A DNA stretch of 64,000 nucleotides from Phreatobacter cathodiphilus. Lineage in GTDB: Bacteria; Pseudomonadota; Alphaproteobacteria; Rhizobiales; Phreatobacteraceae. The position numbers and the translations under genes were made by a program. Below, piece by piece: positions 6,544 through 20,971 of the stretch; the first letter of the stretch is position 1, and every line of letters begins with the position of its first letter. The notes beneath the pieces were generated by a model. That model searched no databases. It was not told the origin of the DNA and worked only from the letters and a program-made list of their open reading frames with translations. Location: positions 620,001-684,000 of the forward strand of contig NZ_CP027668.1 in the NCBI RefSeq assembly GCF_003008515.1, given 5' to 3'.

Positions 6544-6605
6544 CGGTGCGTTGCCGTTCCGTCGTCGAAGCCGCGTAGGCCAGCCCCATCACGGAGCGGG
6601 TGGCC

Positions 6606-7793
6606 ATGGCCGGTATCGTCCTCGACGCAATCGAGAAATCCTTCGGCGAGACGCGCGTCCTCAGGGGCGTGAGCCTTTCCTTCGACCAGGGCGCCTTCGT
6701 CTCGCTGGTCGGGCCCTCGGGCTGCGGCAAGACCACGCTCCTGCGCATCATCGCAGGCCTCGAGAGCGCCGACCGCGGCCGGGTCGTGATCGCCGGCGCC
6801 GAGGTGACCGGCCGCCGCGCCGCCGACCGCGACGTCGCCATGGTGTTCCAGAACTACGCGCTCTATCCCCACATGACGGTCGCGCAGAACATGGCCCTGC
6901 CGCTGGTCATGCGCCGCCTCTCGGCGCTCGAGCGGGCACCCTTCCTCGGCCGCCTCGTCACCGGCACGGCCGAGCGCCGCGCTGCCATCCGCCGCGAAGT
7001 GGAGGAGGCGGCGAAGCTCCTCTCCATCGACCATCTGATGGAACGTCGCCCCGGCCAGCTCTCCGGCGGCCAGCGCCAGCGCGTCGCCCTCGGCCGCGCC
7101 ATCGTCCGCCACCCCAAGGCCTTCCTGATGGACGAGCCGCTGTCCAATCTCGACGCGGCGCTGCGCCACGACATGCGGCGCGAACTGGTCGACCTGCACC
7201 GGCGCGTCGGTGTGACCACGGTCTACGTCACCCATGATCAGGCCGAGGCCATGACCATGTCGGACCGCGTGGCGGTCATGCTCGGCGGCGCCGTGCTGCA
7301 GTTCGGCTCGCCGCGCGAGATCTACGAGCAGCCGGCGACCGTCGACGTGGCGAAGTTCATCGGCTCGCCGCGCATCAACATCCTGCCGGCCGAGACCGAC
7401 GCCGAGAGCCGCGTCGTCGTCGCCGGTTTCGTCACCGGCGAGGTGGCGCCCCGCGCAGCCGGCCGCATCCAGGCCGGCATCCGTCCGGAACACCTCGTGC
7501 CCGCCGCCGACGGCCTGCCGCTGGCGGTTCGCCACGTCGAGTTCCTCGGCGCGGAGGTGCTGGTCTACGGCGAGCACAAGGCGACCGGCACGGAGCTGAT
7601 CGTCCGCCTCGACCCCGCGGCCTGGGAGGCGACGCCCTCGCGCCACGTCCTCTGCGTCGCGCCGATGCCCGGGCGGCTCCTCGCCTTCGACGCCGCCGGC
7701 ACCCGCCTCGGCCTGATCAGCGCCGAGGCGGCGCGCCAGGTCCAGGCGCCCGCCGCCGCCGGGCCGCTGGTCAGGGTGCCGCGCTATGTCTGA
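6606..7793 (+). CDS. ABC importer ATPase, UgpC/MalK-like (copy 1)
   Basis: The energising subunit of a CUT1-type importer, 395 residues. Walker A is GPSGCGKTT (residues 36-44), the Q-loop is VFQNYALYPHMT, the signature is LSGGQRQRVALGRA, Walker B is FLMDEPLSNLD and the switch is VTHDQAEAMTMSDRV. A C-terminal MalK-type OB domain follows from about residue 240. Between Q-loop and signature there is about 18 residues more than in MalK (roughly residues 105-125, RAPFLGRLVTG); the second ATPase in this window has an insert of the same length. I start at the ATG at 6606, spaced 10 bp from GGAG; a GTG at 6600 is possible. First gene of a five-gene operon. Confidence 0.92.
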   Translation: MAGIVLDAIEKSFGETRVLRGVSLSFDQGAFVSLVGPSGCGKTTLLRIIAGLESADRGRVVIAGAEVTGRRAADRDVAMVFQNYALYPHMTVAQNMALPLVMRRLSALERAPFLGRLVTGTAERRAAIRREVEEAAKLLSIDHLMERRPGQLSGGQRQRVALGRAIVRHPKAFLMDEPLSNLDAALRHDMRRELVDLHRRVGVTTVYVTHDQAEAMTMSDRVAVMLGGAVLQFGSPREIYEQPATVDVAKFIGSPRINILPAETDAESRVVVAGFVTGEVAPRAAGRIQAGIRPEHLVPAADGLPLAVRHVEFLGAEVLVYGEHKATGTELIVRLDPAAWEATPSRHVLCVAPMPGRLLAFDAAGTRLGLISAEAARQVQAPAAAGPLVRVPRYV

Positions 7794-8718
7794 CCTCGCT
7801 CTCCCCGCTGCTCTTGCACCGGCGGCCCGCCGCGCCGACCCGATCGGCCGCGGCGAGGCGCTGGCCGCCTGGCTTCTCACGGGACCTGCCATCCTCGCCT
7901 TCGTTCTGATGCTGCTGGTGCCGACGCTGGCCGTCGTCGCCATCGCCTTCACCGATTACGAACTCGGTGCCACCGCCTTGCGCTTCGTCGGTTTCGCGAA
8001 CTTCGCCGAGCTGATGGAGGACCGCGGCTTCGTCACCTCGTTCCGCAACACCGCCTTCTTCGTGGCGGTGACCACCCCCGCTTCGGTGATCGGCGGTCTG
8101 GCGCTGGCCATCGCCATCGAGGGCGGCCGTCGCGGCCGCACCTTCTTCCGGGCCGTCTTTTTCCTGCCCGTCGTCTCGCTGATGGTCGCAATGGCGACCG
8201 CCTTCCAGTACATGTTCCACCCGACCATCGGCCCGGTGAACGCGCTGCTGCGCGGTCTCGGTATCGTCGGCCCGAACTGGCTCGGCTCCTCCGACAGCGT
8301 CATGTGGACCCTCGCCGTCATCGGCGTCTGGGAGCAGATCGGCTTCAACATGGTGCTGTTCATGGCGGGGCTCACCGCCATCCCGCGCGATCTCTACGCG
8401 GCGGCGGAGGTGGACGGCGTGCGCTCCGGCTGGTCGCGGTTCTGGACGGTGACCTGGCCGCTCCTCGGCCCGACGACGCTCTTCGTCCTGACCATCACCA
8501 TGATCCGCTCCCTGCGCGTCTTCGACATCGTCGCGACGCTGACCCAGGGCGGGCCGAACAAGGCCTCCGAGGTGCTGCTCTACACCATGTACACCGAGGG
8601 CTTCACCTACTTCCGCATGGGCTATTCCGCCGCCATCACCGTCGTCTTCCTGGCGGCGGTGGTCGTCCTGATGCTGATCCAGACGCGCCTCATCGACCGG
8701 CGCGTGCACTACGGGTGA
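7786..8718 (+). CDS. ABC importer permease, UgpA-like (copy 1)
   Basis: A 310-residue inner-membrane permease with six predicted helices and the CUT1 coupling (EAA) loop: AAAEVDGVRSGWSRFWTV at about residues 204-221, followed by WPLLGPT. It overlaps the ATPase gene by eight bases. It pairs with the next gene to form the channel. Substrate is not visible in the sequence; context (phosphoesterase, Pho boxes) suggests a phosphorylated organic compound such as a glycerophosphodiester. Confidence 0.9.
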   Translation: MSDLALPAALAPAARRADPIGRGEALAAWLLTGPAILAFVLMLLVPTLAVVAIAFTDYELGATALRFVGFANFAELMEDRGFVTSFRNTAFFVAVTTPASVIGGLALAIAIEGGRRGRTFFRAVFFLPVVSLMVAMATAFQYMFHPTIGPVNALLRGLGIVGPNWLGSSDSVMWTLAVIGVWEQIGFNMVLFMAGLTAIPRDLYAAAEVDGVRSGWSRFWTVTWPLLGPTTLFVLTITMIRSLRVFDIVATLTQGGPNKASEVLLYTMYTEGFTYFRMGYSAAITVVFLAAVVVLMLIQTRLIDRRVHYG

Positions 8719-8725
8719 GGCGGCC

Positions 8726-9574
8726 ATGATCCCCGGTTCCAACGTCCGCAGCCTCGTCGCCGACCTGCCGCGCCTGGCCATCCTGAGCGCGCTCGGCCTG
8801 CTCTTCCTGATGCCCTATCTGTGGATGATCTCGGTGTCGCTGAAGCCGCTGGACGAGGTCTGGCGCGCCTCCATGTCGCTGATCCCCGAGACTTTCGCCA
8901 TCCAGAAGAACTACGGCCGCGTCCTCTCCGAGGTGCCGATCGGCCGCTACCTCCTCAACGGCGTCATCGTCTGCTTCGGCATCCTCGTCTTCCAGCTCGC
9001 ATTCGCCCTGCCGGCCGGCTACGCCCTCGCCAAGCTCAATTTCCGCGGCCGCGAGACGCTCTTCGCCTTCGTCATGCTCGGCCTGCTCATCCCGGCCCAC
9101 GTGCCGGCGATCCCGCTCTACATCGCCTTCGCCAAGACCGGCGTCCTCAACAGCTATGCGGCGCTGATCGCGCCCTCGACCATCTCGGTCTTCGCCATCT
9201 TCATGTTCCGCCAGTTCTTCCGCTCCATGCCGGACGAGCTGATCCAGGCGGCGCGCATGGACGGTCTCGGCGAATGGTCCATCGTCTGGCGCATCGTCGT
9301 GCCCAACGCCTGGCCCGCCGCCACCGCCTTCGCGATCTTCTCCGTCGTCGCCCACTGGAACGACCTGTTCTGGCCGCTCATCGCCGTTTCGGGGAAGGGC
9401 GAGCTCGCGACCCCCGCCCTCGGCGTCGTCTATTTCCGCACCGAGGAGGCGGGCGACGATTTCGGCGCCCTGATGGCCGCAGCGACCCTCACCACGCTCC
9501 CCCTGGTCGCCGCCTTCCTCATCGCCCAGCGCCGCTTCATCGAAGGCATCACCATGACCGGGCTCAAGGGATGA
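8726..9574 (+). CDS. ABC importer permease, UgpE-like (copy 1)
   Basis: A 282-residue six-helix permease, the second half of the importer channel. The EAA loop is QAARMDGLGEWSIVWRIVVP near residues 172-191. PYLWMISVSLKP near residue 30 is typical of the MalG/UgpE branch. It follows the first permease by 7 bp and precedes the first binding-protein gene by 34 bp. Confidence 0.9.
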   Translation: MIPGSNVRSLVADLPRLAILSALGLLFLMPYLWMISVSLKPLDEVWRASMSLIPETFAIQKNYGRVLSEVPIGRYLLNGVIVCFGILVFQLAFALPAGYALAKLNFRGRETLFAFVMLGLLIPAHVPAIPLYIAFAKTGVLNSYAALIAPSTISVFAIFMFRQFFRSMPDELIQAARMDGLGEWSIVWRIVVPNAWPAATAFAIFSVVAHWNDLFWPLIAVSGKGELATPALGVVYFRTEEAGDDFGALMAAATLTTLPLVAAFLIAQRRFIEGITMTGLKG

Positions 9575-9608
9575 GCCCGGCCCGCCCCCGTTTCCACCGG
9601 AGTTCGCG

Positions 9609-10883
9609 ATGACCGCCCGCCTGACCCGCCGCACCGCCCTCGCCGCCGCCGCCGCGACACTCGCCGCCCCGCGCCTCGCCTTCGCCGCGCCGGTAGAAAT
9701 CGACGTCCACTACGCCATGCCCGCCGTCTACAAGGACGTGATGGACCGGCTCGCCGCCGACTTCATGGCCGCCAACGCCGACATCAAGGTGAGCTACAGG
9801 CAGGCGAGCGCCAGCTACGACGACGGCGCCCAGCTCGTGCTGCGCGAGGCGGTGACCGGCCGCCAGCCCGACCTCTCCTTCCAGGGTCTCAACCGCCTGC
9901 GCGTCATCGCCGAGCGCGGCCTCGCCGTCGATCTCGCGCCGCTGCTCGCCGCCGAGGGCGATGTCGGCAAGCTCGGCTACACGCCCGAGCTCCTCGGCCT
10001 CGGCAAGGCGGGCGGCGTGCAGGCGGGCCTCGCCTTCGCCACGTCCAACCCCATCGTCTTCGTCAATGCCGACCTGTTCCGCCGCGCCGGCCTCGACCCC
10101 GACAGGAAGCTGACGACCTGGGACGAGATCATCGCCGCCTCGAAGGCCATTTCCGCCCTCGGCGGCGGCGTCCACGGCTCCTACTACCGCTGGCAGGGCG
10201 ACTGGATCTATTCGGCGCTGCTCTTCGGTTTCGGCGGCCGGATGATGGACGAGGCCGAGCGCGAGATCGGCTTCGCCGGTCCGGAGGGCCGGGCCTCCCT
10301 CACCGTGCTCGACCGCCTGGTGAAGGAGGGCGGCATGCCCGCGCTGTCCGGCGAGGCCGGCGCGCAGGCCTTCGCCGCCGGCCGGGTCGGCATGTATTTC
10401 TGGTCCACCGCCTTCCTGCGCCAGGCCCAGCGCTCCCTCGGCGGCAACTTCCAGCTCGCGACCTGGGAATTCCCGCTGGGAGACCGCGCCCGCGGCCGCC
10501 TGCCGACCGGCGGCGCCGCCGGCATGGTGCTGGCCAAGGACCTGGCGAAGCGGCAGGCCGCCTATCGCTTCCTGCGTCACTGCACCTCGCCGGAGGGCAC
10601 CGCGGTCATGGTCAAGGGCACCGGCTACGTGCCCGTCAACCAGCTCGCCGCCGACGACCCGCGCCATCTCGGCGAGTTCTATCGCGAGAACCCGCTGTTC
10701 ATGACCGGCGTCCGGCAGATGCCCATCATGGTGCCCTGGTACGCCTTCCCCGGCTCCAACGGCGTCCGCATCACATCCGTCATCACCGACAACGTCTCCC
10801 GCGTCGTCGAACAGAAGGCGAGCGTCGATGCGGCGCTGGCCGACATGGCCCGCGACGTCGCGCGCCTCCTGGCGCGCGCCTGA
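9609..10883 (+). CDS. Extracellular solute-binding protein, UgpB-like (tandem 1)
   Basis: A 424-residue periplasmic binding protein (solute-binding family 1). The N-terminus has twin-arginine-like LTRRTALAAAAATLA and a likely cleavage after AFA near residue 27. Shared family blocks are SYDDGAQLVLREA and DLSFQGLNRLR, and a C-terminal block PWYAFPGSNGVRIT. It is a clear paralogue of the next gene and of the binding protein at 13280-14572. Such proteins deliver the ligand to the UgpAE channel; the ligand is unknown but probably a phosphorylated metabolite. Confidence 0.9.
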   Translation: MTARLTRRTALAAAAATLAAPRLAFAAPVEIDVHYAMPAVYKDVMDRLAADFMAANADIKVSYRQASASYDDGAQLVLREAVTGRQPDLSFQGLNRLRVIAERGLAVDLAPLLAAEGDVGKLGYTPELLGLGKAGGVQAGLAFATSNPIVFVNADLFRRAGLDPDRKLTTWDEIIAASKAISALGGGVHGSYYRWQGDWIYSALLFGFGGRMMDEAEREIGFAGPEGRASLTVLDRLVKEGGMPALSGEAGAQAFAAGRVGMYFWSTAFLRQAQRSLGGNFQLATWEFPLGDRARGRLPTGGAAGMVLAKDLAKRQAAYRFLRHCTSPEGTAVMVKGTGYVPVNQLAADDPRHLGEFYRENPLFMTGVRQMPIMVPWYAFPGSNGVRITSVITDNVSRVVEQKASVDAALADMARDVARLLARA

Positions 10884-10959
10884 CCCCCTCATGCCCCGCG
10901 GGCCGGAGGGGCCGGCCGGCGGGGATCTCGTTCAGACCAGCCCCGGAACCGAGGTTGTC

Positions 10960-12249
10960 ATGTCCACCAAACTCACTCGCCGCACGACGCTCGGCCTGAT
11001 GGCCGGCGCCGCCACCATCGCCATGCCGCATGTGGTCCGCGCCCAGACCGTCGAGGTCGTCGCCCACTATTCCATGCCGCCGATCTTCAAGGCCGCCATG
11101 GAGGCCGTCGCCGAGGCCTTCAACAAGAAGAGCGACAAGGTGAAGGTCACCTATGTCAATCCGACGCCCACCTACGAGGACGGCGCCCAGCTCGTGCTGC
11201 GCCAGGCGACCACCGGCGGCCTGCCTGACGTCTCCTTCCAGGGCCTCAACCGCCTGCGCCTCTTCGCCGAGCGGTCCATCGCCGCCGACCTCAAGCCCTT
11301 CCTCGACCGTGAGGGCGACCTCGCGAAGATCGGCTACTCGAAGCCGATCCTCGGCCTCGGCCACCACGGCGGCGTCCAGTGCGGCCTGCCCTTCGCCACC
11401 TCCAATCCGATCAGCTACATGAACGTCGATCTCCTCAAGAAGGTCGGCGCCAGCGCCGAGACCTTCCCGAAGAGCTGGGACGAGGTCATCGCCCTGTCGG
11501 CGAAGATCGCCGCCCTCGGCGACGGCAACACCGGCATGTTCTTCCGCTGGCCGGGCGACGACTGGATGTTCTCCGCCCTGCTCTACGGCTTCGGCGGCCG
11601 CATGCTGACCGAGGACGAGACGAAGGTCGCCTTCGACGGCGCCGAGGGTCTCGCCGCGCTCCGTCTCCTCGACCGCATGGTCAAGGAAGGCAAGATGCCG
11701 AACCTCACCGGCAATGCCGACCTGCAGTCCTTCGGCGCCGGCAAGATGGGCATGATGTTCCGCACCACGGCGCAGGTGCGCCAGGTCTCCGGCATGGTCG
11801 GCAGCAATTTCGAGCTGCAGACCACCACCCTGCCGGTCATCGATCCCGTCAAGGGCCGCCTGCCCACCGGCGGCGCCGGCGCCATGATGACCGCCAAGGA
11901 CCCGGCTCGTCAGGCCGCGGCCTGGGAGTTCATCAAGTTCGCGACCTCCGCCGAGGGCACGACCCTGATGGCCAGGAACACCGGCTACGTGCCCTGCAAC
12001 CAGCTCGCCATCGACGATCCCATGTATCTCGGCGAGTTCTACAAGGCGAACCCGCTGTTCCAGGCCGCGACGAAGCAGGTCCACCTGATGATCCCGTGGT
12101 ACGCCTTCCCGGGCCAGAACTCGGTACGCGTCACCCAGGTCATGGTCGACAATCTCGCCCGCATCGTCGAGCAGAAGGCCTCTCCGGAAGAGGTCCTGCG
12201 CGACATGTCGCGTGAGGTCACGCGCCTCATTCCGCGTCGCCAGGGCTGA
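10960..12249 (+). CDS. Extracellular solute-binding protein, UgpB-like (tandem 2)
   Basis: A 429-residue paralogue of the preceding gene, lying 76 bp downstream. Signal: LTRRTTLGLMAGAATIAM, with likely cleavage after VRA or RAQ near residue 28. Shared blocks are TYEDGAQLVLRQA, VSFQGLNRLR, PTGGAGAMM and PWYAFPGQNSVRVTQV. The frame is open further upstream, but I start at the ATG at 10960 because a signal peptide begins there. Two binding proteins for one channel suggests two related ligands or an environmental back-up. A strong hairpin terminator follows. Confidence 0.9.
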   Translation: MSTKLTRRTTLGLMAGAATIAMPHVVRAQTVEVVAHYSMPPIFKAAMEAVAEAFNKKSDKVKVTYVNPTPTYEDGAQLVLRQATTGGLPDVSFQGLNRLRLFAERSIAADLKPFLDREGDLAKIGYSKPILGLGHHGGVQCGLPFATSNPISYMNVDLLKKVGASAETFPKSWDEVIALSAKIAALGDGNTGMFFRWPGDDWMFSALLYGFGGRMLTEDETKVAFDGAEGLAALRLLDRMVKEGKMPNLTGNADLQSFGAGKMGMMFRTTAQVRQVSGMVGSNFELQTTTLPVIDPVKGRLPTGGAGAMMTAKDPARQAAAWEFIKFATSAEGTTLMARNTGYVPCNQLAIDDPMYLGEFYKANPLFQAATKQVHLMIPWYAFPGQNSVRVTQVMVDNLARIVEQKASPEEVLRDMSREVTRLIPRRQG

Positions 12250-12302: not shown

Positions 12303-12326
12303 CGTCATGCAGGGATGGCGCAGAGC

Positions 12327-13196
12327 TTACTCCGCCGCCTGGTGCATCTTGCTGCCCATCACCTCCCGGAAATCCGGCAGAGGCGACAGCCAGCGGCGGG
12401 CGAGCGCCTCGGTGCGGGTGGACCAGGCGAAGGGATCGCGGCCGTGGACGCGCCAGAGCACATCGTCCGACAGTTCGAGCAGCGCGAAGGCGCCCGCCGG
12501 CTCGCCGGCCGTGGTGAAGGTCTCGGTCAGCGACTGCAGGGTGATGTGGGCGATGCCGTCCACCATGGTCAGCGTGTTCCAGTGGACGTGGCCGGAAATC
12601 CAGATCACCGGCACGCGGGCGGTCCGCAAGACGGCACGCACGCGCTCGGCGGTGGGATAGGTCGAGAAGCGCACGTTGTTCTCGAACCAGAAGTTGCCGA
12701 CCTGCGAATGACCGGAGACGGGCACGTGGCTGACGATGGCGAGCGGCCGGTCGGCGGCCGCGATCGTCGCCGCCAGCCAGGCGAGATCGGCATCCTGGAG
12801 AGCGAAGCCCGTGGGCCGGTGCAGCTTCGAATCGGCGCGCCAGATCACGAGGCGCCAGTCGCCGACGTCCACCGTCTCGTGGCCGGCGCTGCGGCCGAGG
12901 AGGGCGTCGTTGTCAGCAACCTCGAGGTAATCGCGGTCGTGGTTGCCGTCGAGATGGAATCGCGGCGCGGCGATGGGCGCGAAGGCCTCCGCCACCTCGC
13001 GCTCCAGCACGAGGTCGGCCTCGCGTGCTTCGTCGGAAATGCGGTCGCCGAGGTCGAGCACGAGGTCGGGCCGCGTCTCCGCGACGAAGCGGCGGAACTC
13101 CTCCATCAGGCCGAGCGCGGCCGGCCCCGCCTTCGAGAAGGACGGCTTGCCGTGGTGGATGTCGGTGACGATGCAGATGCGGGGGGCGCGGGACAT
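12327..13196 (-). CDS. Metallophosphoesterase (second copy)
   Basis: A 289-residue calcineurin-like phosphoesterase. Metal-site blocks in order are VTDIHHGK (residues 10-17), LDLGDRISD near 47-55, LDGNHDRD near 82-89, SHVPVSGH near 154-161 and SGHVHWN near 200-206. It is only distantly similar to the phosphoesterase at 5600-6424, so it is not a recent duplicate. It is the last gene of the minus-strand Ugp/Phn operon, after the binding protein, with a possible terminator between them. A role in hydrolysing the imported phosphoester is inferred. Confidence 0.85.
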   Translation of the reverse strand: MSRAPRICIVTDIHHGKPSFSKAGPAALGLMEEFRRFVAETRPDLVLDLGDRISDEAREADLVLEREVAEAFAPIAAPRFHLDGNHDRDYLEVADNDALLGRSAGHETVDVGDWRLVIWRADSKLHRPTGFALQDADLAWLAATIAAADRPLAIVSHVPVSGHSQVGNFWFENNVRFSTYPTAERVRAVLRTARVPVIWISGHVHWNTLTMVDGIAHITLQSLTETFTTAGEPAGAFALLELSDDVLWRVHGRDPFAWSTRTEALARRWLSPLPDFREVMGSKMHQAAE

Positions 13197-13231
13197 GGAG
13201 GGGTTCCTCGGGTGGAATCGGCAAAGGCAAA

Positions 13232-13260
13232 GGCCCGCCCCGCCGGTGGCGGGACGGGCC
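13232..13260 (-). terminator. Hairpin between binding protein and phosphoesterase
   Basis: A 13-bp stem with one mismatch (13232-13244 with 13248-13260) and a 3-base loop, followed on the minus strand by TTTGCCTTTG. It sits 20 bp after the stop of the binding-protein gene. It may stop or attenuate transcription before the phosphoesterase gene, or protect the upstream mRNA, giving different expression of the two genes. Confidence 0.6.
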
Positions 13261-13279
13261 GGATCGGGAGAGGCAGCGG

Positions 13280-14572
13280 TCAGCTGGCGCGGCGCGGCAG
13301 CAGCGGCTGGACGGCGGCGGCCATGGCCTTCAGCGCCTCGTCGGCACCCTTCGACTTGTTCACCACCGACTGCAGGTGATCGTTGATCACGTCGGTGATG
13401 CGCAGCGCGTTCTGGCCGGGGAAGGCGTACCAGCCGTTGATCACATCCTGCTGGCGGATGGCGACGAGGTGGTTCGGGTTGTCGCGATAGAACTTGCCGA
13501 GCATGTCCTCGCGCTCCGCCGGAATGGTGGTGCCCGGCATGTAACCGGTGGCGTTGACCATGGCCGTCGCGCCGATCGGGCCGGTGGCGTATTTGATGAA
13601 CTTCCAGGCCGCCTCCTGGCGGGCGCGGTCCTTGGTGAACATCATCGCGACGTTGCCGCCCGCCGGCAGGCGCGGATTGGCGGCCGACAGCGGGAAGCGG
13701 CCGCAGACCAGCTTGAAGCGCCCGCCGATCTCGCGGTTGTAGCGGCCGAGCTGTGCGGTGGACTGCATCGACATGCCGAGGCGGCCGGAGAAGAAGTCCT
13801 GAAAGGCCGTGTCGGGGCGGATGTCGGGCATCTTGCCCTCGTCCACCATCTTGCGCAGCACGCGGATCGCCTTCTCGCCCGGCTCGTCGGCGAAGGCGAC
13901 GCGCGTCTCGTCGGCGTTCAGCATGGTTCCGCCGTGCGACATGACGAGAGCCTGCCAGGCCCAGTTGCCGGTGATGGTCCAGTCATAGAACAGGCCGGCG
14001 CGGTTCTGCGCCGGGGCGGAGATGGCGGCGGCGAGGCGGATCACCTCGTCCCAGGTCGTCGGCAGCTTGTCCGGATCGCCGCCGGCGGCCTTCAGCAGGT
14101 CGACGTTGTAGTAGAGGATCGGCGTCGACATGGCGAAGCCGATGCCCGTCTGCTTCGTGCCGGTCTGGCCGAGCGACAGGAGCGAGGGCGAGAAGCCGAG
14201 CGAGGCGGTCTCCGGGTCGGCGTCCATGAAGGGCTTCAGGTCGATCGGGATGCGGCGCTCGTCGAGGGTGCGCTGGCGGTTCAGGCCATGAAAGGCGACG
14301 TCCGGCAGGCTGTTGGTGACGACGTCGCGGAGGTTGCGCTGGAGGATTTCCTCATAGCCGACCTCCGGCGCGCGCAGCGTCACCTTGATGGTCGGGTTGG
14401 CCTTCTGGAAGTCGGCCGCGATCTTCTCCATCAGGTCCTTGAAGAGGACGGGGATGGAGTACTGCACCTGCAGTTCCACCGGTGTCGACTGGGCGCGCAG
14501 GTAGGACGGCATGGCGACGGAACCGGCCAGTGCGGCCGACGTGGTCAGGAATGTGCGGCGGGACGGGGTCAT
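13280..14572 (-). CDS. Extracellular solute-binding protein, UgpB-like (copy 3)
   Basis: A 430-residue periplasmic binding protein with a twin-arginine-like signal (SRRTFLTTSAALAG, residues 4-17; cleavage probably after RAQ). It is homologous to the tandem binding proteins at 9609-12249, sharing PDVAFHGLNRQR and WYAFPGQNALRITDV. I start at MTPSRR because GGAG lies 8 bp upstream; the frame extends further but is not signal-like. It lies after phnC in the operon, separated from its presumed UgpA/UgpE partners by phnD, phnE and phnC. Confidence 0.9.
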   Translation of the reverse strand: MTPSRRTFLTTSAALAGSVAMPSYLRAQSTPVELQVQYSIPVLFKDLMEKIAADFQKANPTIKVTLRAPEVGYEEILQRNLRDVVTNSLPDVAFHGLNRQRTLDERRIPIDLKPFMDADPETASLGFSPSLLSLGQTGTKQTGIGFAMSTPILYYNVDLLKAAGGDPDKLPTTWDEVIRLAAAISAPAQNRAGLFYDWTITGNWAWQALVMSHGGTMLNADETRVAFADEPGEKAIRVLRKMVDEGKMPDIRPDTAFQDFFSGRLGMSMQSTAQLGRYNREIGGRFKLVCGRFPLSAANPRLPAGGNVAMMFTKDRARQEAAWKFIKYATGPIGATAMVNATGYMPGTTIPAEREDMLGKFYRDNPNHLVAIRQQDVINGWYAFPGQNALRITDVINDHLQSVVNKSKGADEALKAMAAAVQPLLPRRAS

Positions 14573-14608
14573 CGGAAGGCTCCAGGGTCGGTGAGGAGAG
14601 GGCATGCG

Positions 14609-15415
14609 TCAGGCGGCTGCGATGCGCGGGGGCGCCTCGCAGGATGAAGGGGCTGGGCCGCCGGCCGGCGGCTCGGGGGTGCCGTAGATGTCGGCGAAGG
14701 CGGTGGGGGTGAGGGCGCCGGCGGGTGCTTCGAGCACGACACGGCCGCCGCGCAGGGCGACGACCCGGTCGGCGAAGCGGCGTGCGAGGTCGACCTGGTG
14801 CAGCGAGCACAGGACCGCGATGCCGTTCTCCCGCGCCACGGTGCGCAGCACGCCGAGAACGGTGTCGGCGGCCTTCGGGTCGAGGCTGGAGACGGGCTCG
14901 TCGGCGAGCAGCACCCGCGAGCGCTGCGCCAGCACCCTTGCGATGGCGACACGCTGCTGCTGGCCGCCCGAGAGGGAATCGGCGCGCTGATAGGCCTTGT
15001 CGAGGAGCCCCACCCGGTCAAGGCAGGCGAGGGCGAGTTGCCGGTCGGCGGCGGGGAACATCCGGGCGACCACCCGCCACGTCGCGACATGGCCCATGCG
15101 GCCCGCCAGCACGTTGTCGAGGGCCGACATGCGGCCGATCAGGTTGAACTGCTGGAAGATGAGGCCGATGTCGCGCCGGGCCTCGCGCAGCGCCCGCCCG
15201 CCGAGCCCCGCCAGGTCGCGGCCGAGCACCGAGACGCTGCCGTTGTCGGGGTCCACGAGGCGCGTCACGCAGCGGAACACCGTCGACTTGCCGGCGCCCG
15301 ACGGGCCGACCAGCGCGACGACTTCGCCGGGGGCGAGAGAGAAGGACACGTCCGCGAGGGCGGTGGTCGGCCCATAGGTCTTGGACACGCCGCTGAGGCT
15401 GAGCACCGGGGGCAT
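14609..15415 (-). CDS. phnC: Phosphonate-type ABC importer ATPase PhnC
   Basis: A 268-residue ATPase of the PhnC family. Walker A is GPSGAGKST (residues 38-46), the Q-loop is IFQQFNLIGRMSALDNVL, which is diagnostic for PhnC, the signature is LSGGQQQRVAIARVLAQ and Walker B is LLADEPVSSLDP. The switch region is SLHQVDLARRFADR. It overlaps the phnE stop by one base (TGATG). The last 25 residues are low-complexity Pro/Ala. With phnD and phnE it makes a complete phosphonate-type importer, although no C-P lyase or other phosphonate-degrading gene is in the window. Confidence 0.92.
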   Translation of the reverse strand: MPPVLSLSGVSKTYGPTTALADVSFSLAPGEVVALVGPSGAGKSTVFRCVTRLVDPDNGSVSVLGRDLAGLGGRALREARRDIGLIFQQFNLIGRMSALDNVLAGRMGHVATWRVVARMFPAADRQLALACLDRVGLLDKAYQRADSLSGGQQQRVAIARVLAQRSRVLLADEPVSSLDPKAADTVLGVLRTVARENGIAVLCSLHQVDLARRFADRVVALRGGRVVLEAPAGALTPTAFADIYGTPEPPAGGPAPSSCEAPPRIAAA

Positions 15416-16248
15416 CAGACGAGCCTCCGCCGCAGCCAGGCCGAGAACTGGTCGATGGCGGTCACCATCACCAGCACGATGGCCGAGAGGGTCAGCAGCT
15501 TCTGGAAATCGAGGAGGTCGATTGCCGCCTTGATCTCGATGCCGATGCCCCCCGCACCGACGATGCCGAGGATGGTCGAGGTGCGCACGTTCGCCTCCCA
15601 GACGTAGAGCGACACCGAGGCGAGGTTCGGCAGCACGGTCGGCAGCATGGCGTAGGTGACGACCTTGGTGCGGTTAGCGCCGGAGAGGGCGGCGGCCTCC
15701 AGCGGCGCCGGCGGGATCGTCTCGATCGCCTCGGCGTTGAGCTTGGCGATGACGCCCAGCGAATGGACGATCATGCCGAGCACGCCGGCGAAGGGTCCGA
15801 GGCCCACGGCCGCGACGAAGAGGATGGCGAAGACCACCGTGTCGATGCCGCGGAAGGCATTGACCACCGCCCGGACCGGGATCGACAGCAGCGGCGATGG
15901 CGTGACGTTGCGGGCGATGAAGACCGACAGCGGAAAGGCGAGCACGGTGGCCACCGCCGTGCCCACCGTCGCGATGGCGACGGTTTCCAGCGCCCGGTAG
16001 AGGAAGGCGTCGAAGTCGCCGGTATAGGGCGGCCAGGCGGTCGAGGCCCAGGCCCAGAGCCGCGGCAGGCCCGTCACAAGCTTCGCCGGGTCGACTTCGG
16101 CGACCCGCACGGAGGCGAGCACGAAGGCGAGGACGGCGAGGATCACCGCCGCCCGCGTCACGCTCTCGCGCGAGAGGAGGGCGACCGGCGGCTCCGCGTA
16201 GGAGCCGTCGGCGTGCCGGATCGGCAGGGTGGACCTTTCCACGGTCAC
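15415..16248 (-). CDS. phnE: Phosphonate-type ABC permease PhnE
   Basis: A 277-residue permease starting at GTG, which overlaps the phnD stop (GTGA). Family features are ARNVTPSPLLSIPVRAVVNA near residue 130, FRGIDTVVFAILFVAAVGLG, and a coupling loop EAAALSGANRTKVVTYAMLP near 198-217. The end, FSAWLRRRLV, is typical. It forms a homodimeric channel for a PhnD-bound ligand. Confidence 0.9.
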   Translation of the reverse strand: MTVERSTLPIRHADGSYAEPPVALLSRESVTRAAVILAVLAFVLASVRVAEVDPAKLVTGLPRLWAWASTAWPPYTGDFDAFLYRALETVAIATVGTAVATVLAFPLSVFIARNVTPSPLLSIPVRAVVNAFRGIDTVVFAILFVAAVGLGPFAGVLGMIVHSLGVIAKLNAEAIETIPPAPLEAAALSGANRTKVVTYAMLPTVLPNLASVSLYVWEANVRTSTILGIVGAGGIGIEIKAAIDLLDFQKLLTLSAIVLVMVTAIDQFSAWLRRRLV

Positions 16249-17108
16249 GAGGTCCGGATGGCGCCGAGGTCTCGGCCCATCTTCTCGAGGCCCTCATAGG
16301 GCTGGTGGGTGGCCGGCACAAAGCCCGTATAGGGCCAGGGCAGCAGCTTCTTCTCGTCGTCCGAGAGGCCGGCGAGAGCGGCGCCGACGGCGGCCGCGCG
16401 GTCCTGCGGGAAGCTCTTCGAGACCACGACGCACTCGTTCGGCAGCGGGTCGGATTCCCACACCACCGTATTGGAGGTCGGCTGGATGGTGCCGTTGCGG
16501 ATCATCGTGTTGCGGTGGGTGTCCCAGCCGGTGGCGAGGTCGACCTGGCCGTTGACGGTCGCCATCTGGGCTGCGGCAGCGGAGGCGCCCTCCGCATAGC
16601 GGCCGAAGAAGCTCTTCGGCTCGATGCCCTTGGAGCGCAGGAAGTGGGTCGGCACCAGCCAGCCGGACGTCGAGCCGACATCGAGCATCTGCATCGACTT
16701 GCCGCGGGCGTCCTCGGGGAATTTCGCCACCGTCAGGCCCGGGCGAGCGACGATGATGGCCTTGTAGGTGGGGATGCCGTTGACCAGCATGGTGTTGATG
16801 ATGCGCGCCTCGCCCCGCACCTTGGCGAGGATGTAGCCCCAGGGACCCATCTGGGCGACGTCGATCTGCTCGTTGGCGAGCGCCGTGGCGATGCCGGCCC
16901 AGTCGTTGGCGACCTGGAGCTCGAGGTTGGCGCCGACCTTCTCGGCGACGGCCTTGTAGACCGGCTCCCAGACGCGGCGGGTGTCGGCCTGGGTCGGCTG
17001 CTGCGGCCCGAGGCCGATCTTCAGCGTCGGGCGGCCTTGCGCGAGCGCCGGGGCGGCCAGAGTGGCGCCTGCGGCGGCGAGGAGCAGGCGGCGGTCGATG
17101 AGAGTCAT
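16245..17108 (-). CDS. phnD: Phosphonate/phosphate-type binding protein PhnD
   Basis: A 287-residue periplasmic binding protein with a short signal (IDRRLLLAAAGATLAAPALA; cleavage near residue 23). PhnD features are IGLGPQQPTQ, LANEQIDVAQMGPWGYILA and the ligand-binding STSG motif in VGSTSGWLVP. In characterised PhnD proteins the serines and threonine of that motif hold the phosphonate group. The gene lies 23 bp after ugpE copy 2 and overlaps phnE, so a phosphonate-type importer is embedded in a Ugp-type operon. It might bind phosphonate, phosphite or a phosphate ester; sequence alone cannot decide. Confidence 0.9.
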   Translation of the reverse strand: MTLIDRRLLLAAAGATLAAPALAQGRPTLKIGLGPQQPTQADTRRVWEPVYKAVAEKVGANLELQVANDWAGIATALANEQIDVAQMGPWGYILAKVRGEARIINTMLVNGIPTYKAIIVARPGLTVAKFPEDARGKSMQMLDVGSTSGWLVPTHFLRSKGIEPKSFFGRYAEGASAAAAQMATVNGQVDLATGWDTHRNTMIRNGTIQPTSNTVVWESDPLPNECVVVSKSFPQDRAAAVGAALAGLSDDEKKLLPWPYTGFVPATHQPYEGLEKMGRDLGAIRTS

Positions 17109-17131
17109 GGTCGGTCTCCGGTGGGTCGAGA

Positions 17132-17977
17132 TCACTTCACGGCGGTCATGGTGACGCCGTCGATGAACCAGCGCTGGGCAGCGAGGAAGGCGATGACGAG
17201 GGGGGCGGTGATGGCGGTGGCGGCGGCCATGAGCGGGCCGTAGTTCGTCCCCGCCTCGGCATTGGCGAAGTAGACGACGCCGAGCGGCGGGGTCGCGAGA
17301 TGCTCCGACTGGATGACGATCAGCGGCCAGAAGAACTCGTTCCAGTTCCACACCAGAGACAGCACGCCGAAGGCGACCACCGCCGGCATGGCGGTCGGCA
17401 TCATGATGCGCCAGACGATGGCGAACTCGCCGAGCCCGTCGAGGCGGGCCGCGTTGATGAGGTCGTCGGGAACGGTGAGGAAGAACTGCCGGAGCAGGAA
17501 GATGCCGAAGACCGAGATGGTCGAGGGCAGGATGACGGCGGCATAGCTGTTCAGGAGGCCGAGCTGCCAGAGCAGGATGTAGAGCGGGATGGCGGTGACC
17601 TGCGGCGGGATCAGGAGGCCGAGCAGCACCAGCAGGAACATCGTCTCCTTGCCGCGCCAGCGCAGCTTCGCCAGCGCATAGGCGCAGGGCAGGGCGGTCA
17701 GGAGCTGGCAGGTGAAGATGGCGCCGGTGACGATGAAGCCGTTCAGGATGTAGCGGGCGAGCGGCTGCTTGGTGAAGGCGTCGGCATAGTTCTGCCAGGC
17801 GTGCCACTGCTTCGGCAGCAGGCTGAACTCCGGCGAGAAGATCTCGCCCGAGGACTTGAGGCTCACCGAGACCATGATGACGAAGGGCGCCAGCATCAGC
17901 ACGGCGCCGAGGCCGAGGACGGCGTGGCGGAAGATCTCGAAGCCGAGGCCGGAGGCGGCGAGGGACCTTGTACGCAT
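17132..17977 (-). CDS. ABC importer permease, UgpE-like (copy 2)
   Basis: A 281-residue six-helix permease. The EAA loop is NAARLDGLGEFAIVWRIMMP near residues 172-191. It is closely related to the UgpE-like permease at 8726-9574 (both have the VSLK block near the first helix and end in a GVTMT or GITMT motif). It follows ugpA copy 2 by nine bases and precedes phnD by 23 bp. Confidence 0.9.
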   Translation of the reverse strand: MRTRSLAASGLGFEIFRHAVLGLGAVLMLAPFVIMVSVSLKSSGEIFSPEFSLLPKQWHAWQNYADAFTKQPLARYILNGFIVTGAIFTCQLLTALPCAYALAKLRWRGKETMFLLVLLGLLIPPQVTAIPLYILLWQLGLLNSYAAVILPSTISVFGIFLLRQFFLTVPDDLINAARLDGLGEFAIVWRIMMPTAMPAVVAFGVLSLVWNWNEFFWPLIVIQSEHLATPPLGVVYFANAEAGTNYGPLMAAATAITAPLVIAFLAAQRWFIDGVTMTAVK

Positions 17978-17986
17978 GGGATCGCC

Positions 17987-18922
17987 TCAACCGTAGTGGG
18001 TGTGGCGTTCCTGCAGCTTCACCTGGATGACGGTGACTAGCAGGACGAAGCCGAGGAAGACGACGGTGAGGGCGGCGGCATAGGCCGAGCGCAGGAAGGA
18101 AAAGCCCTCCTGGTACATCTGGAACAAGAGCACGTTGGTGGACTTGTTGGGGCCGCCGTCGGTGAGCACCTGCACCGTGTCGAAGACCTGGAAGGCGCGG
18201 ATGGCGGTGATGGTGACGACGAAGAGCGTCGCCGGCCCCAGCATCGGCCAGGTCACGCGCCGGAACCGCTCGAAGGCGCCGTCCGCTCCGTCCACCGCGG
18301 CGGCCTCGTAGAGATCCCTGGGGATCGCCTTGAGGCCGGCGACGAAGAGCACCATGGACAGGCCGATCGCCTGCCAGATGCCGATGACGCCGAGGGCGAA
18401 GAGCGCCGTGTCGGGGTTCTTCAACCAGTCGGTCGTCGGCAGGCCGAGGAAGGCGAGGGTCAGGTTGATGGCGCCGACGGTCGGATGGAAGGCGAACTGG
18501 AACACCAGCGCCATGGCGAGGAGGGTGGAAACCACCGGCAGGAAGAAGGCGGCGCGATAGAAGCCGCGCAGGCTGGTGCCGGCCTCGATCAGGATCGCGG
18601 CGCCGAGCCCGAGGAACACCGACAGCGGCACGACGAAGGCGACATAGGCCAGCGTATTGCGCAGCGTCTTCCAGAACACCTCGTCGGCGGCCATCTCGCG
18701 GTAGTTGGCGAGCCCCGCCCAGGCGATCTCCGGCATGCCGAAGGTCCAGTCGGTGAACGACAGGACGAAGACGGCGACGGTCGGTCCCAGTAGCATGATC
18801 CAGATGAGGACGAAGGCCGGCCCGGCGAGAACCCAGGCCGCCATCTGCTCGGCCGCCTCGCCTGCCGCCCTGCGCCGGCGGCCGGTCGCGGCTCCCGCCA
18901 TGGGCAGCGCCAGGTCAGACAT
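17987..18922 (-). CDS. ABC importer permease, UgpA-like (copy 2)
   Basis: A 311-residue permease paralogous to 7786-8718: both start MSDLALP and end in an R-x-HYG tail. The EAA loop is EAAAVDGADGAFERFRRV near residues 206-223. It overlaps the ATPase gene by eight bases, exactly as in copy 1, so the ATPase-permease-permease block of the two operons is a conserved unit that was probably duplicated or acquired twice. Confidence 0.9.
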   Translation of the reverse strand: MSDLALPMAGAATGRRRRAAGEAAEQMAAWVLAGPAFVLIWIMLLGPTVAVFVLSFTDWTFGMPEIAWAGLANYREMAADEVFWKTLRNTLAYVAFVVPLSVFLGLGAAILIEAGTSLRGFYRAAFFLPVVSTLLAMALVFQFAFHPTVGAINLTLAFLGLPTTDWLKNPDTALFALGVIGIWQAIGLSMVLFVAGLKAIPRDLYEAAAVDGADGAFERFRRVTWPMLGPATLFVVTITAIRAFQVFDTVQVLTDGGPNKSTNVLLFQMYQEGFSFLRSAYAAALTVVFLGFVLLVTVIQVKLQERHTHYG

Positions 18923-20099
18923 GGAGCGCCTCGATCCGCTGCGGCTGCAGCGGTGTCTCGGTGAGCGCCTGCGCCTTCAGCCGCCGGCCGTCCGCGGCGA
19001 AGACCATCACCCGCCCGGGCGCCACCGTGAAGGCGGCCTCGTCGCCCGGGCGGAACCGCGCCCCGACGGCCGGCTCGACCCGAGCGACGACGGGCTTTTC
19101 CGCCCCCGCCACCCGCAGATGCACCAGTGTCTCCGCGCCGAGCATCTCGACATGGCGGACCGTCCCGGCGATCCTGATCGCCGCCTCGCCGCGCCCCGCG
19201 GGCAGCAGGACCTCCGGCCGGACGGCGACGGTCGCCTGCGCTCCCGCCGGTGTGGTGACCGCCACCGGCCAGCGCGCGCCGAGCACCGAGAGGCCGCCGT
19301 CGGCCTCGATCCGCGCCGGCAGGGTGTTGATCTCCGGCGTGCCGATGAAGGTCGCCACCGCCAGGTCCTGCGGGTCGTCGTAGATGACCTGGGGCGAAGC
19401 GACCTGCATCAGGCGCCCGCCCATCATCACCGCGACCCGGTCCGACATGGTCATGGCCTCGGCCTGGTCGTGGGTGACGTAGACGAAGGTCGTGCCGAGG
19501 CTGCGGTGCAGTTCCGAGATTTCCGTGCGGGCCTGCACGCGCATCTTGGCGTCGAGGTTCGACAGCGGCTCGTCCATCAGGAAGGCCTTGGGCCGCCGCA
19601 CCATGGCGCGCGCGAGGGCGACGCGCTGGCGCTGGCCGCCGGAGAGCTGGGCGGGACGGCGCGCCAGGAGATGGCCGATGCCGAGGCCTTCGGCGACTGC
19701 CGTCACGTCGGCGGCGATGCCGGCGCGCGTCGTGGCCGCGCCGGGCATGATGCGCCCGACCAGCGGCAGGCGCTGGGCCGCCGAGAGCCGGCGCATCTCC
19801 AGCGGCAGGCCGATGTTCTCCGCCACCGTCATATAGGGGTAGAGGGCGTAGGACTGGAACACCATGGCGATGTCGCGTGCCTTCGGCGGCAGGTCGTCGA
19901 CCAGGGTCCCGCCGATGACGACGTCGCCCGCGTCCTGAGTCTCGAGGCCCGCGAGGATGCGCAGGATCGTCGTCTTGCCGCAGCCGGAGGGACCGACCAG
20001 CGTCAGGAACTCGCCCGCCGCGATGTCGAGGGAGACGCCCTGGAGGACCGGGGTATCCCGAAAGCTCTTCGCGATGCCGCGCAGCGAAATTCCGGCCAT
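18915..20099 (-). CDS. ABC importer ATPase, UgpC/MalK-like (copy 2)
   Basis: A 394-residue ATPase with Walker A GPSGCGKTT (residues 36-44), signature LSGGQRQRVALARA, Walker B FLMDEPLSNLD and switch VTHDQAEAMTMSD, then a MalK-type regulatory domain. It carries the same approximately 18-residue insertion as copy 1 (RLPLVGRIMPG near residues 111-121), which sets both apart from MalK and UgpC. It is the first gene of the minus-strand Ugp/Phn operon and is preceded by an operator-like dyad at 20132-20159. Confidence 0.92.
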   Translation of the reverse strand: MAGISLRGIAKSFRDTPVLQGVSLDIAAGEFLTLVGPSGCGKTTILRILAGLETQDAGDVVIGGTLVDDLPPKARDIAMVFQSYALYPYMTVAENIGLPLEMRRLSAAQRLPLVGRIMPGAATTRAGIAADVTAVAEGLGIGHLLARRPAQLSGGQRQRVALARAMVRRPKAFLMDEPLSNLDAKMRVQARTEISELHRSLGTTFVYVTHDQAEAMTMSDRVAVMMGGRLMQVASPQVIYDDPQDLAVATFIGTPEINTLPARIEADGGLSVLGARWPVAVTTPAGAQATVAVRPEVLLPAGRGEAAIRIAGTVRHVEMLGAETLVHLRVAGAEKPVVARVEPAVGARFRPGDEAAFTVAPGRVMVFAADGRRLKAQALTETPLQPQRIEALHV

Positions 20100-20131
20100 G
20101 ACGCCCTGCCCATCGACGCCCCGGAGGGCTC

Positions 20132-20159
20132 ACTTGTCGCGTTTAACTCGACAAGTTAA
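20132..20159. promoter_or_regulatory. Operator-like dyads upstream of the Ugp/Phn operon
   Basis: Two overlapping perfect inverted repeats in the 82-bp gap between the PhnF-like gene and ugpC copy 2. The first is TTAACT-CGACA-AGTTAA (20143-20159). The second is ACTTGTCG (20132-20139) with CGACAAGT (20149-20156). The spacing and the GT...AC ends suit a HutC/PhnF-type GntR dimer. The adjacent PhnF-like protein is the obvious candidate binder; this is inferred. Confidence 0.6.
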
Positions 20160-20181
20160 CGGGCGTATGACGGAGCCTGTG

Positions 20182-20898
20182 TCAGAGCGTGTCGATGCGG
20201 ACGATGAGGCTGCCGGAGGGGATGACGGCATTGCCGTAGAGCAGCGGCCGCCCCTCGCCGTCGCTGTCGACATACATCATCACCAGCACGGGTGCGTCGA
20301 GCGGGATGGAGAGCGCCTCCGCCTCGCGCGGCCGCGGCATGCGGCAGTCGATCCAGGTCGAGGCGCGGTAGAAGGCGTCGACGCCGTATTCGGCCAGCGC
20401 CTGGGTGAAGCTGCCCGACCGCGCCACGGCCTCGCCGATGCCGGCGAAGCGGGCGCCGTCGAAGAGATGGTAGCCGTAGATGAGGAGCGAGGGGCTGGCG
20501 CCGCGCACCGTCTCGACCATGACCAGCGGGGTGCCCTCGGCGAGGCCGAGATGGCCGGCGATGGCGGTCGTCGCCAGCCGCTCCTCGGTGCCGACCACCC
20601 GCCCGGAGGGACCGGCGTTCATCTGCCGCTCGATCTCGCTCCACTTGGAATCGCGGGTGATGCGGTATTCGGGCGGCCGGTCCTCGACGAAGACCCCGCG
20701 GCCGCGGCGCGCCCGCACGAGGCCGAGCATGGCGAGGTTGGCGAGCGCCATGCGCACCGTGTGGCGATTGACGGAAAAGCGCTCGGCGAGGTCGTTTTCC
20801 GACGGGAGCTGGTCGCCCGGCCCGATCAGGCCGGCACGGATCTCGGCCTCCAGGTCGCTCTGGATCAGCCGCCAGACCGGTATGCGCGTCTTCGCCAT
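20182..20898 (-). CDS. GntR/HutC-family regulator, PhnF-like
   Basis: A 238-residue regulator. The N-terminal winged helix (about residues 8-75) contains LPSENDLAERFSVNRHTVRM. The C-terminal UTRA ligand domain (about residues 95-238) resembles phosphonate-metabolism regulator PhnF, with a family-typical block YRASTWIDCRMPRPREAE. I start at MAKTRIPVW; a GTG seven codons upstream is possible. It lies between the nitrile-hydratase genes (73 bp upstream) and the Ugp/Phn operon (82 bp downstream), all on one strand. It could regulate either, but the dyad next to ugpC favours the importer operon. Confidence 0.8.
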   Translation of the reverse strand: MAKTRIPVWRLIQSDLEAEIRAGLIGPGDQLPSENDLAERFSVNRHTVRMALANLAMLGLVRARRGRGVFVEDRPPEYRITRDSKWSEIERQMNAGPSGRVVGTEERLATTAIAGHLGLAEGTPLVMVETVRGASPSLLIYGYHLFDGARFAGIGEAVARSGSFTQALAEYGVDAFYRASTWIDCRMPRPREAEALSIPLDAPVLVMMYVDSDGEGRPLLYGNAVIPSGSLIVRIDTL

Positions 20899-20971
20899 CG
20901 GCCCCGCCGCCCTCGACACCCGGGGGAGAGGTGGACCATTCCGCCCCCGATCTCAAGGACCGAGGCCCCCC

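Follow-up and report, generated by a model that had tools for sequence, protein, structure and literature searches.

A Ugp-type operon of Phreatobacter cathodiphilus that encloses an HtxB-related PhnDEC importer, a possible organophosphodiester-scavenging unit

Results

Two importers in one minus-strand operon

Nine genes follow one another on the minus strand of the 64-kb stretch analysed here (the window) of the genome of the freshwater bacterium Phreatobacter cathodiphilus, from position 20919 to 12327, in the order phnF, ugpC, ugpA, ugpE, phnD, phnE, phnC, ugpB and a phosphoesterase gene (Table 1). The Ugp-type genes form a complete CUT1-type set, with an ATPase, two permeases and a binding protein, and the PhnDEC importer is encoded between ugpE and ugpB. 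The two importers probably form one pathway for an organic phosphorus compound, because the same pair recurs in distant bacteria. That both of them and the phosphoesterase, predicted to be a phosphodiesterase, make up as one whole a unit that scavenges phosphorus from organophosphodiesters is a reading to which we give an even chance. It builds on the observed gene content and its conservation, on the repeated association of the two importers with each other and with a phosphodiesterase and, by alignment, on the kept phosphate contacts of the UgpB-like protein.

The genes are closely packed: read from phnF to phnC, the junctions are 82 bp, an overlap of 8, 9 bp, 23 bp (ugpE-phnD) and overlaps of 4 and 1, followed by 36 bp between phnC and ugpB and 83 bp between ugpB and the phosphoesterase gene. 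Gene content, order, strand and positions had been proposed earlier from the letters of the window (the original prediction), and every gene was found where it had been placed, with overlaps or gaps of at most 83 bp. A single shared transcript for the minus-strand cluster is a plausible prediction.

Conservation within Phreatobacter

Four Phreatobacter contigs carry a PhnD 91-94% identical to that of the window, and PhnD was found in 7 of the 12 genomes of the genus (E<=1e-60). The phosphoesterase was matched in nine of the 12 (E<=1e-20), eight of them with ugpB adjoining on the stretch examined and seven of the nine with PhnD. The nine-gene order stands on one contig in six genomes (numbered G, with loci numbered L): that of the window, G001 (L072), and those of L014, L015, L016 (= L081) and L017, matched by shared sequence to G009, G010, G008 and G006, respectively; a seventh, G003 (L033, L043), has it in pieces. 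The arrangement is hence not unique to the strain, as a search of other genomes had been proposed to decide, and its conservation across the genus places the gene order beyond chance. G005 and G011 (L070, L071) carry phnF-ugpCAE-ugpB-phosphoesterase with nothing between ugpE and ugpB, and no PhnD match at E<=1e-60; G002, G004 and G007 gave neither a PhnD (E<=1e-60) nor a phosphoesterase match (E<=1e-20). The phnDEC genes may have been gained by most of the genus or lost in G005 and G011.

Recurrence in other bacteria

Four beta-proteobacterial genomes, G755-G758 (L031, L032 with L095, L036 and L038; hereafter the linked beta-proteobacteria), combine the two modules in another order, phnDEC-ugpCAE-ugpB-GpdQ-like phosphodiesterase-HAD phosphatase; in front of phnD stands a LysR gene in divergent orientation. 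In G756 the halves lie on two contigs, L032 ending in ugpC and L095 running from ugpA to the HAD gene, from which we infer the phnDEC-ugp joint. In three of the four, the HAD gene is followed by one for a TonB-dependent receptor (L031 12316-13482, L038 18726-20795, L095 9325-7328), while the fourth contig stops 1.1 kb past the HAD gene; this suggests an outer-membrane route for the substrate in these bacteria.

The same phnDEC is present in eight Roseomonas-type genomes. Six of these have a 70-72% identical ugpB elsewhere, organized as ugpCAE-ugpB-phosphodiesterase (in L147 the module is truncated at its ugpC end); one of the other two gave no ugpB match and one a 40% match only. In G1126 about 12 kb of a single contig separates the two modules, L018 and L146 being overlapping stretches, and in the other five the phnDEC and ugp stretches compared do not overlap. 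In addition, phnDEC lies beside a HAD gene in six further genomes (L034, L035, L037, L039, L041, L042 with L045), two of these loci (L039 and L041) also having a GpdQ-like gene; a search for ugpB in the six at E<=1e-80 gave none. At L023, an alpha-proteobacterial locus, phnD is preceded by a GpdQ-like gene.

The two clades are rare at large. Among 398 genomes of the phylum, only that of the window (G000) has PhnD at E<=1e-70. For ugpB, 12 of 385 genomes of the class passed E<=1e-100, G000 alone scoring better than 2.3e-139; the ugpB of L038 was matched at E<=1e-110 in 3 of 300 genomes of its order, two of them already known as linked. The phnDEC loci were collected via a PhnD search and co-occurrence was judged against separate genome draws; the reverse test, starting from the phosphoesterase, covered the genus.

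Plasmid cassettes with the order ugpCAE-ugpB-phosphodiesterase are found in Delftia, Cupriavidus, pAKD18 and Agrobacterium pusense. On plasmids L082 and L084, ugp-like/phosphodiesterase/HAD cassettes lie between IS21- and IS1071-type transposase genes; both are IncP plasmids typed as conjugative, an arrangement expected for a mobile catabolic cassette.

Origin of the pairing

Of the 31 loci given for a PhnDEC tree, L023 was dropped, its phnC being matched in part, and all 29 given for a ugpCAEB tree were used; incomplete sets, among them L029, L030, L033, L042, L043, L045, L046, L095 and L147, were left out. The placement of four PhnDEC rows, flagged for their long branches, is unsure, and the clades for the topology tests were picked once the pairwise identities were known. 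In the PhnDEC tree, Phreatobacter (six rows) is sister to the Roseomonas type (eight rows) with a support of 100/99, apart from the linked beta-proteobacteria, and one clade of Phreatobacter and linked beta-proteobacteria is rejected (p-AU, approximately unbiased test, 4.6e-5). The ugpCAEB tree unites the Roseomonas type, the linked beta-proteobacteria and Phreatobacter with and without phnDEC in one clade (100/100), where the linked beta-proteobacteria stand next to Phreatobacter at only 92/93; a clade of the phnDEC-bearing Phreatobacter and the linked beta-proteobacteria that leaves out G005 and G011 is rejected (p-AU 1.9e-8).

Because the phnDEC sets of the two operon types are not one clade, the joined state would have been made more than once, or have been lost, moved or re-ordered in between and remade; alternatively, a single joined origin may have been separated later. 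The same two modules met repeatedly, which supports the functional coupling of the two importers assumed in the original prediction: the same two clades are joined in two orders and co-occur in further genomes.

The UgpB-like binding protein keeps the phosphate contacts

The UgpB-like protein fails the UgpB equivalog (75.5 bits, cut-off 411). For Phaeobacter UgpB, PMC12718374 lists the phosphate contacts Tyr64, Ser143, Ser266 and Tyr342 and the glycerol contacts Glu88, Trp188, Trp191, Gly303 and Arg393, and describes the two Tyr and two Ser as conserved across UgpB, GPC- and U3G-binding proteins and not in glucose-binding ones. In the sequence alignment, all four phosphate contacts are kept as Y74, S150, S272 and Y345, which are present in 42, 41, 35 (Thr in the others) and 42 of the 42 rows of alignment A1, respectively. 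Two of the five glycerol contacts are retained (W199 and G306), Glu88, Trp188 and Arg393 being replaced by G97, F196 and T394. These residue numbers follow alignment A1, where the count starts at the codon before ATG 14572, and so exceed the protein's own numbering by one; the N-terminal part of the mapping (Tyr64, Glu88) passes through a weak alignment to E. coli UgpB.

The kept phosphate contacts would make unlikely a sugar ligand for this protein, an outcome that the original prediction had named as speaking against itself. Glycerol-3-phosphate is not the first choice either, part of the glycerol contacts being lost. The structure model of the protein has a mean pLDDT (predicted local distance difference test) of 90.4, and sugar binders and UgpBs are interleaved among its fold matches in the PDB.

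PhnD belongs to the HtxB lineage

PhnC and PhnE pass their equivalogs. PhnD falls short of its own (132.9 bits, cut-off 261.1) and clears only the cut-off of the wide family TIGR01098 (115.9 bits versus 112.05). Its nearest solved relative is HtxB (Table 1), and the next is PtxB with 68.7 bits. Profile A3, which itself holds an HtxB-like row, scores 371.4 bits to HtxB versus 26.9 bits to 9lf9, which we take to be GpxB going by a neighbouring entry code; at this distance, a GpxB identity for PhnD was set aside.

In HtxB, F158, W52 and N128 narrow the pocket for hypophosphite, according to PMC5700983. The cap tryptophan W52 is kept as W70 in 25 of 25 rows of A3, and N128, F158, R178 and D206 are replaced by S146, A177, T197 and E225 in all 22 clade rows. 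Hypophosphite was thus rejected as the ligand, the selective residues of HtxB being replaced. At the third oxygen site, where Te_PtxB has the histidine H160, the window PhnD likewise has another residue, A177. A histidine is present at this position (Te_PtxB H160/HtxB F158) in two rows further off, L053 and L086, which would thereby resemble the fifth, 'hybrid' class of such binding proteins named in the same paper (PMC5700983). A second PhnD, 46% identical and accompanied by phnE and phnC, is present in the Phreatobacter genome G008 (L073, L053). The name of a 'phosphonate' importer, given in the original prediction, calls for correction: this PhnD is of the HtxB (hypophosphite) lineage with an altered pocket, and its ligand is not readable from the name.

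A phosphodiesterase accompanies the Ugp module

Class III phosphodiesterases carry the metal-ligand motifs DxH, GD, GNHD, H and GHxH, and these are intact in the window enzyme and invariant in nine of nine sequences. The top Foldseek match is GpdQ, followed by Rv0805, for a model whose pLDDT is only 62.7; the window enzyme probably has the class III phosphodiesterase (GpdQ/Rv0805) fold, and it is predicted to be, probably, an enzyme that cuts phosphate diesters. The proposed tie of such an enzyme to the Ugp module is borne out by a class III phosphodiesterase gene directly 3' of ugpB at 18 of the 18 clade loci with enough sequence (at least 69% identity, 17 genomes), one further locus being too short. 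Outside this range, the gene directly follows ugpB at two of five loci with 50-69% identity, one of which, L149 at 68.8%, is a clade member, at 12 of 13 with 43-50%, and at four of 13 below 43%, three of these four being weak matches and three more loci too short. The clade phosphodiesterases outside Phreatobacter are GpdQ-like, 46-56% identical to a Delftia plasmid protein (91.3 bits to GpdQ), and the Phreatobacter phosphoesterase is diverged from them in sequence. PdeA, a Delftia phosphodiesterase, was considered as a described precedent; the literature search gave nothing on its gene neighbourhood.

A different metallophosphoesterase gene lies between ugpE and ugpB in L149 (8683-9609) and L150 (about 14.3-15.2 kb). 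The ugpE/ugpB joint, which is the phnDEC site in Phreatobacter, is possibly a recurrent insertion point.

In all four linked beta-proteobacteria, a HAD phosphatase gene comes after the phosphodiesterase gene. It scores best with the phosphoglycolate phosphatase model, at 134-154.3 bits and below the cut-off of 180; an assignment as phosphonatase is weak (TIGR03351, 32.1-40.2 bits versus a cut-off of 218.9).

Regulator and candidate operator

The PhnF-type protein passes the TIGR02325 equivalog (191.4 bits, cut-off 156.8) and matches PF00392 and PF07702. The gap between phnF and ugpC contains a 33-bp element, a candidate operator, that is kept in 10 of 10 loci (nine Phreatobacter genomes) while the gap is otherwise divergent. 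Inside it, at 20156-20132, lies the palindrome ACTTGTCG-N9-CGACAAGT, exact in nine of the 10 loci and one base off in one arm in L015. Because the phnF-type gene and the element are both retained in the two genus members without phnDEC, they would belong with the Ugp module and not with phnDEC; the family of the regulator is as originally described.

No sigma-70-like promoter was found in 12200-21200, where 0.5 were expected by chance, a result of little information; the terminator-like sites of the same interval, three versus 2.5 expected, are not above chance. One of them is the hairpin between ugpB and the phosphoesterase gene, and a GC-rich inverted repeat is visible by eye at this gap in nine loci (eight genomes). 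Given both, the phosphoesterase may be transcribed more weakly than the rest of the operon.

Other features of the window

The operon converges with a separate, paralogous Ugp-type operon, whose two tandem binding proteins are 52.9% identical to one another; their homologues are also in tandem in L142 and L143 (Roseomonas-type genomes). The GpdQ-like phosphodiesterase encoded divergently from it reaches 161.3 bits with NF050112, below the cut-off of 400, and the open reading frame (ORF) at 5435-6472 on the plus strand is antisense to its gene, the matches of this ORF being artefacts. Directly upstream of phnF, the stretch 20990-24114 on the minus strand contains a nitrile-hydratase alpha-like gene (220.8 bits, below the cut-off of 249.85), a short nitrile-hydratase beta-like gene (34.3 bits, cut-off 152.2) and genes for the ATPase and binding protein of an ATP-binding cassette importer of the sulfonate/SaoA-like kind.

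Table 1. Operon genes, candidate signals and neighbouring features, in positions of the window.
Feature	Position	Strand	Remarks
PhnF/HutC-family (GntR+UTRA) regulator	20182..20919	-	GTG start 20919; ATG possible at 20898
Candidate operator element, 33 bp, phnF/ugpC gap	20130..20162	-	conserved in genus
UgpC/MalK-type ATPase	18915..20099	-	UgpC model 369.4 bits, below cut-off 432
UgpA-type permease	17987..18922	-	UgpA model 118.4 bits, below cut-off 335
UgpE-type permease	17132..17977	-	UgpE model 138.5 bits, below cut-off 297
PhnD-family binding protein, HtxB lineage, altered pocket	16245..17108	-	HtxB 203.9 bits; alignment A3
PhnE permease	15415..16248	-	TIGR01097 254.6 bits, cut-off 216.7, passed
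PhnC ATPase	14609..15415	-	TIGR02315 297.9 bits, cut-off 266.1, passed
UgpB-like binding protein	13280..14572	-	ATG 14572; another ATG at 14605
GC-rich terminator-like hairpin, 13 pairs, between ugpB and phosphoesterase gene	13232..13260	-	
Calcineurin-like phosphoesterase	12327..13196	-	PF00149; metal-ligand motifs intact
Convergent paralogous Ugp-type operon, separate from the minus-strand operon	6600..12249	+	41-54% identity to ugpC/A/E/B
Paralogous operon, ATPase	6600..7793	+	
Paralogous operon, permeases	7786..8718 and 8726..9574	+	
Paralogous operon, binding proteins	9609..10883 and 10963..12249	+	
GpdQ-like phosphodiesterase, divergent from the paralogous Ugp operon	5600..6424	-	GpdQ 125.5 bits

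Discussion

A proposed phosphodiester-scavenging unit

The direction of flow, the division of labour between the importers, the cytoplasmic site of cleavage, the regulation and all ligand identities are what we infer for this unit. UgpCAE and the UgpB-like protein would import an intact phosphodiester whose alcohol part is other than glycerol, and the class III-type metallophosphodiesterase would cleave it in the cytoplasm. PhnDEC, of HtxB descent and with a changed pocket, would import a small related phosphorus species, most likely a phosphomonoester from diester cut outside and, less likely, an alkylphosphonate or phosphite. Phosphate would then be released from the monoester by the HAD phosphatase in the beta-proteobacterial version, and by a phosphatase encoded elsewhere in Phreatobacter, while the operon would be under the control of the PhnF-type regulator, acting at the conserved element in front of ugpC.

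Several observations weigh against this reading. Among the fold matches of the model for the UgpB-like protein, a cyclic-maltooligosaccharide binder comes first and UgpB structures rank third, fifth and lower. The phosphoesterase of the window is far from the GpdQ-like enzymes of the relatives (at best 30.9% identity over 123 residues), its model is the poor one mentioned above, and a PDB sequence search with it gave no match; the 64-kb window contains no HAD-phosphatase match. The operon lacks phnDEC in two members of the genus; ugpB was matched in 11 genomes, in five of which the proteins are just 37-52% identical, and of the 23 genomes or records that carry this phnDEC or a related one, 12 gave no ugpB at E<=1e-80. 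The beta-proteobacterial genomes are metagenome-assembled, so genes missing from them prove little. Finally, PhnD keeps the P-H-contacting tryptophan of HtxB, a feature as compatible with reduced phosphorus as with a monoester, and in L042 the phnD frame begins 36 bp, and its matched part 105 bp, after the end of a ptxD-like gene, while a ptxABC/ptxD-like unit stands beside ugpB-phosphodiesterase in L146 and L147.

Phosphonate, reduced phosphorus, shared ligand or accident

The alternative that survives best, though we consider it unlikely, is a phosphonate-ester pathway: Ugp would import a monoester of an alkylphosphonate, such as a phosphonylated glycerol or glycan fragment, its ester bond would be cut by the phosphodiesterase, PhnDEC would import the phosphonate and a distant C-P lyase would break the C-P bond. 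It is favoured by the PhnF-family regulator, above its cut-off, by the LysR protein of the linked beta-proteobacterial locus L038, which comes near the aminoethylphosphonate-type TIGR03339 (298.3 bits, cut-off 341.1), and by the C-P lyase protein PhnJ. The original prediction had noted no C-P lyase, which is right for the cluster and not for the genome: a single PhnJ match lies at C1:2709899, about 2.1 Mb away, near further phnC/D/E-type genes, and PhnJ is present in all four other Phreatobacter genomes checked and, counting the genomes that have this phnDEC, in 19 of 29. However, the cluster itself has no phosphonate-cleaving gene, the PhnF-type regulator remains with the Ugp module when phnDEC is absent, and PhnJ is present in only one of the four linked beta-proteobacteria and was not found in the other three; in one beta-proteobacterial family it occurs in two of six genomes with this PhnD versus 10 of 68 without (Fisher p 0.25). 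An operon dependent on C-P lyase is not required, and neither is a phosphonate substrate, because PhnJ was not found in three of the four linked genomes. The scarcity of PhnJ together with the HAD phosphatase in the linked beta-proteobacteria therefore favours a phosphoester. Uptake of a phosphoester and its product, as first proposed, is still the best reading, and the phosphonate part of that proposal is dispensable.

Slightly less probable is that the unit degrades reduced-phosphorus esters (phosphite esters, known as H-phosphonates, or methylphosphonate esters), in which case, jointly, UgpCAEB would import the ester, the GpdQ-like enzyme would free phosphite or alkylphosphonate, PhnDEC would import the free reduced species and, in the relatives, a phosphite dehydrogenase would complete the pathway. 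The ptx-like units above speak for it: their PtxB-like proteins are 67% identical, the dehydrogenase of L146 scores 325.7 bits to the solved phosphite dehydrogenase 4e5k versus 182.4 to the best glyoxylate reductase, and in G1126 the ptx-like unit, ugpCAE-ugpB-phosphodiesterase and phnDEC share one contig within about 25 kb. Alternatively, the ptxD-like neighbours could reflect a mere clustering of phosphorus genes. The ptx-like regions span 2900-9300 in L146 and 6205-10714 in L042, and a PF01663 gene of the alkaline-phosphatase superfamily stands between in L146 and L147.

An overlap of the two importers in their ligand is improbable: two unrelated importers of one ligand in one cell have a published precedent in PMC12718374, but the UgpB glycerol contacts are partly replaced here and PhnD is far closer to HtxB than to the presumed GpxB entry. 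Least probable of all is an accidental neighbourhood in which phnDEC, inserted into the Ugp operon, is carried along with no functional tie, since the same clades are joined in beta-proteobacteria in another order, two rare clades co-occur and the joints of 23 and 36 bp are tight, although two genus members have the operon without phnDEC and the Roseomonas-type genomes keep the two modules outside one operon.

The loci point to two importer clades, associated and apparently uncharacterised: a PhnDEC derived from HtxB, and a CUT1 system of UgpB-like kind with its phosphodiesterase. Distant bacteria have joined them in one locus in two gene orders. They lead to a testable claim, that some small organophosphorus compound, or else a diester together with its product, is important enough for two importers. 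Moreover, surveys of how phosphonates and glycerophosphates are cycled may be misled if they go by the labels 'PhnD', 'PhnF' and 'UgpB' alone.

Comparison with known systems

The E. coli ugpBAECQ operon serves glycerophosphodiester uptake, its UgpQ being of the GDPD kind. Like it and the Phaeobacter UgpB system (PMC12718374), the window operon combines a CUT1-type importer with a phosphodiesterase, and the phosphate contacts are kept. It differs in the partial loss of the glycerol contacts, the class III phosphodiesterase, the additional phnDEC and the PhnF-type regulator. The agrocinopine system AccA/AccF belongs to other protein families and has a single importer. What it shares with the window operon, as described in PMC7356202, is a binding-protein transporter that brings in a phosphodiester, which a phosphodiesterase then cuts.

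As in the HtxB and PtxB importers of reduced phosphorus (PMC5700983), PhnE and PhnC are of the same kind and PhnD, closest to HtxB, retains W52 as W70. HtxB differs in having N128, F158, R178 and D206 where the window protein has S, A, T and E, and neither htxA nor ptxD was recognised in the window cluster. In the case of the glycerol-1-phosphate importer GpxB, GpxB and UgpB are encoded at separate loci, and the window PhnD is distant from 9lf9, taken as GpxB. The likeness is that of a PhnT-family phosphomonoester importer beside UgpB in one cell (PMC12718374).

Closest in layout to the Ugp part are the cassettes of Delftia, Cupriavidus, pAKD18 and Agrobacterium pusense, which share ugpCAE-ugpB-phosphodiesterase, with a HAD gene annotated in three and a HAD-like match in pAKD18; they differ in that phnDEC was not seen in the stretches covered, the regulators are others and ugpB is 44.7-48.9% identical. 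The supposition that no system of such composition had been described agrees with searches of open PMC papers, none of those found describing such a hybrid in title or abstract. The parts are of known kinds, and the coupling of the two importers would be what is new.

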